Assembly (NCBI GenBank): GCA_016845245.1
Contig: JAERSY010000060.1
Location: 1-59,370, forward strand
Direction of reading: 5' to 3'
Source: Phycisphaerae bacterium
Lineage (GTDB): Bacteria > Planctomycetota > Phycisphaerae > Phycisphaerales > SM1A02
DNA length: 59,370 nucleotides
A model generated the notes under the pieces. That model was not told the origin of the DNA, did no database searches, and saw only the letters and a program-made list of their open reading frames with translations. The position numbers were made by a program, and so were the translations under genes. Below, in pieces: positions 40,615-44,030 of this stretch. Numbering within the stretch: position 1 is the stretch's first letter; every line of letters starts with the position of its first letter.

Positions 40615-42726
40615 TTATGCTTTCAAAACTTCCTTTTTGAGGTTTTCAGGCATTAATCTGTACTCTGCTGGTTCCATTGAACTTGCAGCTCGACCTTGAG
40701 TCATGCCACGAAGAACAGTTGTGTAACCGAACATTTCTGAAAGTGGTACGTCAGCGTTAATGATTCGTACAACACCTCTGAGTTCAGAGTCATTGATTTG
40801 ACCGCGACGACTCGCTAGGTCACCAGTCACACTACCGAAGAATTCTTCGGGAGTTGTAATTGTGACTTTCATAATTGGCTCAAGAAGCGCAAGACCCGCT
40901 GAGGTGCATGCTTCTCTAAAGCCGAGTGCGCCAGCTTGCTCGAATGCTACTTGGCTAGAGTCAACTTCGTGGTATGAACCGTCAATCAGTTCAACACAGA
41001 CGTTAACCATTGGGTAACCACCAAGGATGCCAGAAGCAGCAGCGTTTCTCACACCAGTTTGTACTGATGGAATGTAATCACGTGGAATAGAACCGTGTGA
41101 AATCTTGTCAACAAAGACGATACCGTCTTTCATGTTGAGTTCTTGTTCTTCAGCTTCAGCTTGTGTCATTGGTTTAACGTTAAGGACAACGTCACCGAAC
41201 TGACCACGACCACCAGATTGCTTCACGAATTTGCCGCGAATCGCATCAGCAGCGCCTGTGATTGTTTCACGATATGAAACACGAGGTGTGCCAACGTTTA
41301 CGCCAATCTTCATTTCTCGAAGCAACTTGTTTTTAACGATTTCAAGGTGAAGTTCGCCCATGCCGGAGATAATCGTTTCACCAGTTTCATCATTGTAGTT
41401 TGCTCTAAATGAAGGGTCTTCACGAGTAATTGTCGTGAGTGCTTCACCGAGTTTCTTTTTATCATCATTTGTGATTGGTTCAATTGACATTGAAATCACA
41501 GGATCAGGGAAGTGCATACGCTCTAGGATGATTGGATCATTCGTATCACAGAGTGTGTCACCTGTACCTGAGTTTTTCAAACCAATGACAGCAACAATTG
41601 AGCCAGCACCTGCATAATCAAGTGCTTGACGGTCTTTTGCGTGCATCTCATAAATTCGTGAGACGTTTTCTTTTCTGCCATTGCCAGGATTGAGTACCCG
41701 GCTGCCTTTTTCAAGTCGACCTGAGTAGACTCGAACGTATGTGAGATCGCCGTGTGAGTCACTGACAACTTTGAATACAAGACCTGAGAATGGTGCATCA
41801 TCAGTATGTGGACGAGTCAGTTTTTCGTCTTCATCCTTCGGGTTTGTACCTTCAACGTCAGGAACCTCAGTTGGATTTGGAAGATACTCAATCACACCAT
41901 TGAGGACGCGTTGAACACCAATGTTTTTCAAAGCTGAGCCACAGTAAGTCGGGAACGCTCGCATGTCGAGTGTTGCACGACGGAGTGCTGCTTTGAGTTG
42001 TTCTGCAGTAATTGCTGCTTCATCTTCAAGATAAAGTTCAGTTAACTCATCATCAAGTTCAGCGATTCGTTCAACGATGTCATGTCGCCAGAGTTCAGCC
42101 ATTTCTTTCATGTCATCTGGAATGTCACGTTGTTCAACAACAGCACCGAGTTCAGAACTGTCGAAGTAGTAAGCTTGCATTTCGATGAGGTCGATGATGC
42201 CTTCGAATGAGTCGCCTGCACCGATTGGAAGTTGGACTGCAACTGCGTTTGCACCTAAGCGCTCACGAATTGTGCCAAAACTAAACTCGAAATCAGCGCC
42301 AACTTTGTCCATTTTGTTGATGAGACAAAGTCTAGGAACGTTGTAACGATCTGCTTGACGCCAGACTGTTTCAGATTGAGCTTCGACGCCTTCTTTGCCG
42401 TCAAAGACTGCTACTGCACCATCTAGAACACGCATTGAGCGTTCCACTTCGATGGTGAAGTCCACGTGACCAGGAGTGTCAATGAGGTTAATGGTGTATG
42501 TATCACCATTGAATTCCCATGGACATGTTGTCGCAGCGGATTGAATTGTAATTCCACGCTCTTGTTCTTCTTCAAGGAAGTCCATTGTTGCAGTGCCTTC
42601 GTGCACTTCGCCAATCTTGTATGACTTGCCTGTGTAGTACAACACACGCTCAGTAACTGTTGTTTTACCTGCGTCGATGTGTGCGCAAATTCCGATGTTC
42701 CGTACTTTTCTTAGATCGCTTTCCAT
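40615..42726 (-). CDS. fusA: Elongation factor G
   Basis: EF-G is the GTPase that translocates the ribosome. G1 AHIDAGKTT, switch [11 protein letters not shown] and NKMD are present. The C-terminal domains IV-V ([22 protein letters not shown]) complete a canonical 703-aa protein. Planctomycetes often carry several EF-G paralogues, so this may not be the only copy. It is not in a str operon: no rpsL, rpsG or tuf is adjacent. GAGGT lies 9 bases before the ATG. Just upstream are a small hairpin, a TAATAT -10 and the structured noncoding region described separately. Confidence 0.96.
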
Positions 42727-42735
42727 TTTTATAAT

Positions 42736-42790
42736 ACCTCAGCCAAAAGTTGGCTTTTTCCTATATTAGACACACGCAACGCGGTGTTCA
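42736..42790 (-). promoter_or_regulatory. fusA proximal promoter, leader hairpin and ribosome binding site
   Basis: On the minus strand TGAACA (42785-42790), a 16-base spacer and TAATAT (42763-42768) form a candidate promoter. The leader then folds AGCCAA-CTT-TTGGCT (42741-42755), which abuts GAGGT. The hairpin could modulate ribosome access. Confidence 0.45.
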
Positions 42791-42799
42791 TTAACAAAT

Positions 42800-43021
42800 A
42801 TTTCTTGCTTTACCCAATCCACTGGGTGAGCTGTAACTTTGGTTGCCCGACTTTCCGTCGAGCTGTTCATTGCATTTGCTGCAATGGGGTGCCGTCAGTT
42901 CAGCCGGGCCTCTTCTTCATCATCTTCTAGCAACGGGTGTTCTCCTTCCGCTGCGTCACTTGCGTGACAGGGGCCGTGGGTTGTCTGCCATCTAAATGCA
43001 CATTGCAAAAAGAGGGCTAAG
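42800..43021 (-). ncRNA. Unidentified structured RNA between rnhB-like gene and fusA
   Basis: No reading frame of useful length crosses this region on either strand. On the minus strand there are five successive helices. They are GTCAC with a GCAA tetraloop (42955-42968), a 7-bp stem with one G-U (42930-42954), a perfect 7-bp stem (42868-42886), a 6-bp stem with a GGAAA loop (42846-42862) and a 5-bp stem (42812-42827). ACAGCTC occurs twice (42828-42834, 42860-42866). A promoter-like pair lies just upstream. I compared it by eye with RNase P, tmRNA, SRP and 6S RNA and with common riboswitches, and none fits. It is either a small RNA or a fusA leader. Confidence 0.45.
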
Positions 43022-43027
43022 CCCCGT

Positions 43028-43055
43028 ATTTTATACGAAGCAGAGTACGAGTCAA
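43028..43055 (-). promoter_or_regulatory. Candidate promoter of the structured RNA
   Basis: On the minus strand TTGACT (43050-43055), 16 bases and TAAAAT (43028-43033) form a good sigma70-type pair right after the rnhB-like stop. Just downstream, GGGCT-T-AGCCC followed by TCTTTTT (about 43007-43024) could instead be a weak terminator of rnhB. Confidence 0.45.
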
Positions 43056-43061
43056 TCGTTT

Positions 43062-44024
43062 TTATGAAGAACGGACAAGTTGTTCTTGCGGAACGCCATT
43101 TTTCGCCAATATTGGCTCAATTTCTTTCAAAAATCGGCGACCATCTTGCACATACCCCGCTGTTGGCTTCAAATCAGGGATTTGAGTAGAGAAGTAGCGA
43201 TTGAACCGAATCATGTGCAATTCACGAGTGAACTTCGCAAGCATCGATGCGAGCGCGACGGGCATGTGCTTTTCATCGCTTTTTGAAGCAAATGTAAGAG
43301 TGACCATCTTGGAGCCGATGCTCAATCGATATCTGCTCATTGACTTGTTTTCAGCGAGAATCTGGATTGTTGCCTCAGGCCAGCAGAGTTGCAACTCTTC
43401 GCGGTATTGCACCCTTCCGCCATGGCGGTCAATCATGATTCGAGGATGCTGATTTCCAAACTCGGTTAACAGCCCATCAACGTGTTTCATTGCAGTTGAG
43501 AAATTCAACGATGCTTTTGATGCTTGTTGCGTTTGCTTGTTGTAATCGTCAACGTCGATTGATGTGCATTTCAACCAAGGGCACGATATGTTTGCACGCT
43601 GCAACTGTTTTCGCAGCATCGCAATATCAATCTTTAACACATTCGCATCATTACCAAGTGGCAACGGTGTTTGGCCTTTGTACCACTCCTTTTCATGATT
43701 GACAGATTCGGTTGATTGAAAAAACTCGCTGTCGTTGGTTGGGATTGAAGCAGTGGACGAAGCGAGAAAACTAAGCACACCACGTTCGAGATGTGTCAGT
43801 GCTTTGTGCTTCGCATTCGATTTCAATTTTTTCGAGTCATTGACCGCGATTCGCGGCACCGATTCACTTCTCGTTCGGCATATTGCTTTCGAAAGAAGGG
43901 ACCACATGTCGGGCTCGCCATCAGCAGGGTCATAATCATGAAGGACAAATGCGCTAGATGCGACACAAAGGGGGCCAAACATCGGTCCATACCCTGCCTC
44001 ATCAATGCCTGCGTAAATCAACAC
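43062..44024 (-). CDS. rnhB: RNase HII-like protein, enlarged
   Basis: The N-terminal GIDEAGYGPMFGP and VNDSKKL match RNase HII, which nicks DNA at ribonucleotides and RNA-DNA hybrids. IMIDRHGG supplies another acidic residue and ASMLAKFTRE corresponds to the last motif, where Glu replaces the usual Asp. At 320 aa it is about 100 longer than typical, with extra sequence between the first motifs and the third. I chose GTG at 44024: TATGAT ends 6 bases before it, whereas TTG at 44030 has no support. It is divergent from mnmA. It may be a planctomycete-specific variant with altered activity. Confidence 0.72.
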   Translation of the reverse strand: MLIYAGIDEAGYGPMFGPLCVASSAFVLHDYDPADGEPDMWSLLSKAICRTRSESVPRIAVNDSKKLKSNAKHKALTHLERGVLSFLASSTASIPTNDSEFFQSTESVNHEKEWYKGQTPLPLGNDANVLKIDIAMLRKQLQRANISCPWLKCTSIDVDDYNKQTQQASKASLNFSTAMKHVDGLLTEFGNQHPRIMIDRHGGRVQYREELQLCWPEATIQILAENKSMSRYRLSIGSKMVTLTFASKSDEKHMPVALASMLAKFTRELHMIRFNRYFSTQIPDLKPTAGYVQDGRRFLKEIEPILAKNGVPQEQLVRSS

Positions 44025-44030
44025 GCCCAA

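Follow-up and report, generated by a model that had tools for sequence, protein, structure and literature searches.

The stretch of DNA that precedes the elongation factor G (EF-G) gene, fusA, in a Phycisphaerae bacterium raises the question of what is encoded in an intergenic gap that appears to be filled with RNA structure. The window analysed was the whole stretch of 59,370 nucleotides of contig JAERSY010000060.1, in which fusA and an RNase HII-like (rnhB-like) gene, both on the minus strand, flank the gap 42727–43061. The initial annotation, which correctly placed this gap between an RNase H-like gene and the EF-G gene, described it as free of reading frames and as the possible site of either a new small RNA or a translation-factor leader. 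The absence of reading frames turned out to be wrong, as the gap holds a 12-codon open reading frame (ORF) with AAGGAG at 42947–42942, eight bases, UUG at 42933 (presumably read as fMet) and the stop codon UGA at 42897–42895, which escaped the list of open reading frames because that list holds only frames of at least 50 amino acids. Comparison among relatives gives good support to the reading that leader and ORF are real and that the RNA of the gap is a fusA leader with a tiny acidic ORF. The features are collected in the table.

Features of the fusA leader and its neighbours, in window coordinates
Feature	Position	Strand	Basis or remark
RNase HII-like gene, upstream neighbour, outside the element	43062–44030	minus	
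Promoter, TTGACT (43055–43050), 16-nt spacer, TAAAAT (43033–43028)	43028–43055	minus	promoter scan and genus comparison
5′ leader part, GGGCUU(A)GCC start and small internal hairpin (P1/P1a)	42976–43024	minus	genus conservation
P2 5′ strand, GGCCCC	42970–42975	minus	possible partner: ORF bases 42912–42907 (GAGGCC)
P3 hairpin, GUCAC-GCAA-GUGAC	42955–42968	minus	genus covariation
P4 hairpin, GCAGCGG...CCGUUGC, Shine-Dalgarno (SD) in loop, UUG start in 3′ strand	42930–42954	minus	
SD of the leader ORF, AAGGAG	42942–42947	minus	sequence, pattern searches
Leader ORF, 12 codons and UGA, peptide LLEDDEEEARLN	42895–42933	minus	comparative coding evidence, SD, context
Helix H1, ORF bases 42909–42902 (GCCCGGCU) with 42852–42845 (AGUCGGGC) and inner pairs	42845–42909	minus	
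P6 hairpin, GCUCGAC-GGAAA-GUCGGGC	42845–42863	minus	alternative to H1 for the shared 3′ arm
fusA, EF-G, 703 aa, presumed target	40615–42726	minus	start 168 nt 3′ of the leader stop

Two outcomes had been named that would refute the proposal, a significant match to an Rfam family and a lack of conservation among relatives. Neither occurred, as Rfam gave no such match and the element is kept in 13 of 13 genomes of the genus. When 60 relatives were searched at the DNA level, homologous DNA (E < 1e-4) was recovered in 11 of the 12 other genus members, each time between the rnhB-like gene and fusA, while the twelfth (G002, locus L044) was found by a pattern scan and then by the covariance model R1, which detects all 13 members with E values of 6.8e-19 or better, all 13 having been in its training alignment. 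The annotated promoter TTGACT-N16-TAAAAT is present, with both hexamers kept in 13/13 genus members (TTGAC, judged by eye, and a −10 of TATAAAAT or GATACAAT), and about one such site was expected by chance in the stretch scanned. Promoter, structured leader and 12-codon ORF together span 43055–42845 of the minus strand, ahead of fusA. Of the two identities first suggested, the translation-factor leader is borne out by the position directly 5′ of fusA in 13/13 genus genomes, with the conserved promoter; an independent small RNA is not favoured, since the ORF is the most constrained part and the minus strand showed no terminator-like site from the ORF to fusA.

Coding constraint on the ORF is well supported by sequence comparison within the genus. 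The ORF is kept between rnhB and fusA in all 13 genomes with a length that differs by one whole codon, and the peptides (11–12 codons, stop UGA or UAA) follow the pattern M-[QL]-E-D, three to four Asp/Glu, A-[RQ]-L-[HNR]. Among 232 in-frame pairwise codon differences, 92 were synonymous and 116 conservative (208 together), compared with 0 synonymous and 6 conservative of 216 in the +1 frame, and 96 and 0 of 232 in the +2 frame. The pattern SD, start, x and four Asp/Glu codons was matched exactly once in each of the 13 genus genomes, always at the fusA leader, and its reversed control gave 0 matches in the same genomes. No second leader copy scored above chance in the organism's own genome by DNA, model or pattern searches. 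Conservation of the peptide within the genus might also be expected of a functional microprotein acting in trans, but this is scarcely credible for a product of 11–12 residues that is linked to fusA, whose sequence is not kept between families and whose codons overlap an RNA helix.

The minus-strand RNA, to which the initial annotation had assigned its helices, was predicted to fold at −106 kcal/mol (z −3.63), with 0/100 shuffles as good; the plus-strand RNA was less distinct (z −1.71, 6/100 shuffles as good) and was set aside. Positions 42845–42700, which include the first 27 fusA bases, did not outdo shuffles in folding (z 0.33), which places the end of the structured part near 42845. The hairpins with GCAA (42968–42955) and GGAAA (42863–42845) loops can both form, as had been annotated. 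Two copies of the annotated ACAGCTC repeat do occur (42866–42860 and 42834–42828), but they were not seen by eye in the rows of the other genus members, and the doubling looks incidental. The covariation analysis that had been advised gave a divided answer in the genus alignment, with a covariation score above that of all shuffles (0/500 reached it) and a count of pairs with two-sided changes (4) that was reached by 81/500. Two-sided changes affect three pairs of P3 in the 10 genus members where this hairpin is present (three are without it); P1/P1a shows no two-sided compensation and P4 no two-sided change in the genus. In P2, the window has one C-A mismatch, and one pair, C-G in 10 of the 13 members, is reversed to G-C in the other three. 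The RNAalifold consensus gave another long-range pairing (columns 1–6 with 123–128), with no two-sided changes. One branch of the genus (L012, L011 and L044) is without the P3 hairpin; in L012 the ORF end finds its best partner about 49 nt downstream (AUGCAGCC), and L011 and L044 show GUGCAGCC at a similar place.

In agreement with the annotated lack of fit to known RNA families, no family of Rfam 15 was matched at the gathering score; five weak matches at E up to 10 (E 2.2–6.1, four of them snoRNA-like) were rejected, and no tRNA or tmRNA was found. A structured leader (z −3.6 to −3.7) with a conserved 5′ part and conserved P6 arms could also be a riboswitch or the binding site of a protein (r-protein or EF-G), with an incidental ORF. 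This was judged very unlikely, in view of the missing Rfam match, the coding constraint with its whole-codon length change, and the acidic ORFs of unrelated sequence found in families f2 and f3 (see below).

The strongest structural result concerns H1, the pairing of the final ORF codons with an arm further downstream, which sequence comparison shows to be species-matched. In the swap test, the last 18 ORF bases were paired with the arm within 75 downstream bases, and own partners were compared with swapped ones in 20 genera, those with delimitable leaders (g4, g24 and g49 being left out). Own partners gave −21.7 kcal/mol versus −17.4 kcal/mol for swapped ones, with 0/2000 permutations as good, and own pairing beat both swap means in 15/20 genera. 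The subset of 14 genera with the A-x-x-[RHN] end again gave 0/2000 permutations, and H1 was weaker in the 12 f2/f3 leaders (41/2000). Several base-pair types occur at ORF-end positions 8–12 across 14 of the 20 genera, these types being taken from the minimum-energy duplex, for which the swap test serves as the fair control. When upstream parts were paired with downstream parts as a control, 818/2000 permutations did as well. Cross-genus swap tests were not significant for P2, P4 and P6 (374, 1269 and 750 of 2000, respectively), nor for P2 restricted to ten UUG-type leaders (729/2000); those of P4 and P6 are uninformative because the arms are too alike between genera. Beyond the genus, P2 is a candidate pairing only, and P4 is a putative hairpin.

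When folded with the ORF end (42933–42844; −30.6 kcal/mol, z −3.73), the RNA places that end in H1; folded alone, 42894–42845 puts the downstream arm of H1 into the P6 hairpin (−19.5 kcal/mol, z −3.71). Since H1 forms with the ORF end and P6 without it, a ribosome over the ORF end would be expected to switch the RNA from H1 to P6. Stable sequestration of the fusA ribosome site was not seen in folding of the window; in the best fold, GAG is the only part of the likely fusA SD that is paired, with CUC 42830–42828, and the centroid fold is without this pairing.

The distribution of the element was followed by model and pattern searches. R1 had matches in 33/181 genomes of the family at E up to 0.5. 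Its context check covered the 18 non-genus loci L062–L079, of which 13 lie directly upstream of fusA; the other five (L071, L072, L077, L078 and L079; E 0.0024–0.3) showed no fusA and were taken as chance. A pattern search gave 42 places, of which 13 within the genus and 14 spread over nine other genera of its family (f1) are leaders, the remaining 15 having no acidic run and being taken as chance; the reversed pattern gave about 34 matches, so the pattern alone is no proof. In a pattern scan of named genomes, fusA and/or rnhB stood beside the match at 12/18 loci, and L031, L037, L039, L042, L045 and L047, with neither gene in the fetched stretch (that of L037 ends just after its match), were taken as chance. 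The fusA loci sampled came from 30 f1 genera (28 with a fusA start), three of which (g4, g24 and g49) owed their selection to pattern matches, and from 29 other genomes of the order.

The related peptides of the R1-located fusA leaders were LLDEDKDARLR, LQDDDEDAPLR, LPEIDKEARLR, LPDEDEDAPLRC, LLEEAEEAHLR, LLDEAENARLR and MQFEDDEETARSR. Further acidic leader ORFs at the sampled loci encode MPNEEDDDARPR, MPSDEDNDARSR, MQHEEDEHARLR, VSSGDDSDARLR, MPGDDEEDPG and others, and two begin without a clear SD (MTLPSDDDPPPDDDEPT and MPGDDDDPDPNTQPP...). Family f2 contributed MDSIDEDADAGSSS, MESRDEDDEAGSH, MQDDSDPDPA, MDEDPDNEPD, MSDSDDDDSDPR and others, and the one genome of family f3 contributed MCDTDETGLR. 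By a strict count (SD 5–16 bases before the start, 6–30 codons, at least four Asp/Glu in residues 2–13), 12/36 f1 loci and 10/15 f2/f3 loci (from 14 genera) passed, compared with 0.08 and 0.16, respectively, expected from shuffles of the same stretches, with 1/36 and 0/15 on the reverse strand, and with 1/14 in families f4–f6. R1 had supplied eight of the 36 f1 loci; of the remaining 28, six pass with at least four acidic residues and nine with three, and the excess of acidic ORFs stays large. Outside the order, 0/19 planctomycete genomes reached even three acidic residues, in a sample of one fusA copy per genome drawn from the better matches, one of 20 stretches being too short. Judged from these loci, many genera of uncultured Phycisphaerales carry the element, in two families and, for a third, in one genome.

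With three acidic residues, 17/36 f1 loci pass. Among the 19 that do not, g4 and g49 have their leader on another contig, and g3, g10, g17 and g51 have weaker or SD-less ORFs. No leader is visible at 13/36 f1 loci, several of which have an rnhB–fusA gap of only about 85–120 nt by eye (at L128, L129, L130, L133 and L136, fusA follows the rnhB-like gene at this distance, with no leader ORF). The short-gap genera point to loss or gain of the element within the family, and the leaderless loci show that it is dispensable in some lineages. Some f1 leaders, that of g3 (MDQIKEGNIQAPLR) for example, are hardly acidic and yet keep their C-terminus; the acidic run is thus perhaps not the sole sensor. The leader of g24 (L111) reads LQEEDW-stop, with the homologous ...NAHLR end in another frame, either through a sequencing error or as a decayed copy. 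In f5 and f6, EF-G appears to be N-terminally extended (MSTQATPQ..., MTTATTIDP...) at L151, L154, L157–L160, L162, L163, L165, L166 and L168, and no clear acidic leader was seen at those fusA loci. A possible acidic ORF (MLAEGSLPLNDEDD) lies about 340 nt before fusA at L140 (f4), and its inner start (LNDEDD) is the one f4–f6 locus that passes the strict count.

The conserved C-terminus admits a different explanation, in which an end of the type A-[RPH]-[LPS]-[RHN] stalls the terminating ribosome and the acidic run is secondary. Such peptide-specific arrest is known from the TnaC and Erm leaders. The A-x-L-R-type end is indeed kept in 14/20 f1 genera compared, including the poorly acidic g3, and the end codons also form H1. 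The latter pairing, however, constrains these codons and could explain their conservation without arrest; at the level of the family, a coding test of the last five codons was reached by 31/500 column shuffles and is only suggestive. Moreover, 11 f2 leaders are without this end (AGSH, DPDPA and EPD, for example) and the f3 leader ends in GLR, while 10 of the 12 f2/f3 leaders have at least four acidic residues in positions 2–13 by the strict count. Arrest was regarded as rather unlikely.

Control by termination was considered as well. On the minus strand, no intrinsic-terminator-like site (GC hairpin and U run) was found between the ORF and fusA, the only such site on this strand being a 5-pair hairpin at 43025–43013, at the 5′ end of the leader. 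A Rho-dependent attenuator as at mgtA, where translation of the leader would decide termination before fusA, could draw on the Rho that the genome encodes; from the ORF to fusA, 24/34 leaders have more C than G, the best 78-nt C-over-G bubble has a median of 12 on the transcribed sense strand versus 4 for G over C, and some relatives (g47 and g51) are extreme in this respect. Nevertheless, the first 600 fusA bases contain a bubble at least as large (median 14), C/G has a median of only 1.15, and the three leaders of the window's genus that were measured have C/G values of 0.55–0.85 and show no C-rich, G-poor Rho loading stretch after the ORF, the picture in the family being mixed. An attenuator of this kind was found to be quite improbable, and in the window's genus the data do not favour control by Rho. 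Two Rho-like genes were noted (G000:C59:47201-48442 and G000:C25:47886-48998), only the first of which passes the cut-off of the Rho model.

Several known systems resemble the fusA leader in part. In classical leader-peptide attenuators, alternative helices are gated by the position of the ribosome; the fusA leader differs from them in having no run of cognate-amino-acid codons and no intrinsic terminator found. PMC8092293 describes MgtQ, from the mgtC–mgtB intergenic region of Salmonella, as having eight codons, acidic residues 2 and 5 and overlapping alternative stems, and its abortive translation was proposed to free the ribosome site of the next gene. MgtQ is similar to the fusA leader in its very short ORF, its early acidic codons, its mutually exclusive RNA stems on the ORF, the proposed destabilisation of the ribosome and its position ahead of the controlled gene, within 219 nt of untranslated sequence. 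It differs in having two acidic residues rather than up to six, in lying within an operon of enterobacteria and in having a Mg2+ transporter instead of the EF-G gene as target; occlusion of the ribosome-binding site was shown there and was not seen in the folds of the fusA leader. MgtL, the leader of mgtA, carries EPDP just after its start, where ribosomes drop off at low Mg2+, according to PMC11282234 and PMC8934632. Some f2/f1 leaders likewise have DPDP, DPDN or DDDDPDP, that is, Glu/Asp with Pro after the start, but MgtL acts via Rho-dependent termination in response to Mg2+, whereas the leaders measured in the window's genus have no Rho signature. High EF-G was reported to provoke peptidyl-tRNA drop-off on slowly reacting residues, and acidic peptides were suggested to induce drop-off likewise (PMC8934632). 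This drop-off and reinitiation ties the EF-G level to early peptidyl-tRNA drop-off; it was demonstrated with Pro and D-Ala, both in vitro and in cells, and not as gene control (PMC8934632). No sequence relation was seen between the fusA leader peptides and MgtL or MgtQ. A search for EttA gave 37 TIGR03719 matches, the best of 299 bits and below the cut-off of 806.75; these matches make an ABC-F-like protein likely and an EttA orthologue at most a candidate.

A conserved short ORF with a ribosome-binding site lies upstream of the presumed target gene, as in ribosome-gated leaders, and acidic residues, with or without Pro, stand at the start of the nascent chain, as in the IRD type (MgtL, MgtQ), a few leaders being poorly acidic. 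The comparative data make it probable, in our estimation, that the element is a cis-acting leader of the fusA mRNA in which a short, highly acidic, ribosome-gated upstream ORF tunes EF-G. Ribosomes starting on the ORF would meet the Asp/Glu run within the first residues, become destabilised and often drop off; those reaching the ORF end would open H1, so that P6 can form, and the balance between H1 and P6 would set EF-G output, most likely via fusA translation. Speculatively, the signal could be EF-G activity, with high EF-G favouring early drop-off, or Mg2+/ribosome stability, and in either case the leader would become a feedback loop on translation capacity. The signal, the sign and the route of regulation are what we infer here. 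In the simplest reading, by analogy with the systems above, the leader may report the survival of ribosomes in early elongation and adjust EF-G to it. A more specific proposal, which was regarded as possible though tentative, is an EF-G homeostat, in which the peptide would measure EF-G activity directly and EF-G-driven mistranslocation would lead to drop-off at the acidic codons and reset fusA expression, selection having kept the chemistry of the peptide (acidic, with or without Pro) and not its sequence across the families of one order.

Neither a fusA leader peptide of this kind nor an acidic planctomycete leader was found in the open PMC literature; the passages of PMC4833913 on leader genes deal with Planctomycetes broadly, without naming fusA. 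Ribosome-gated leaders whose peptides destabilise the ribosome form a known kind, and it is the downstream gene and the lineage that are new. If the proposed mechanism is true, EF-G synthesis would be tied to ribosome drop-off, and the leader would provide direct feedback on elongation. To our knowledge, little is known of how the amount of EF-G is set outside the classical str operon. Control by acidic peptides, familiar from the Mg2+ transporters of enterobacteria, would then also serve a core translation factor of planctomycetes.
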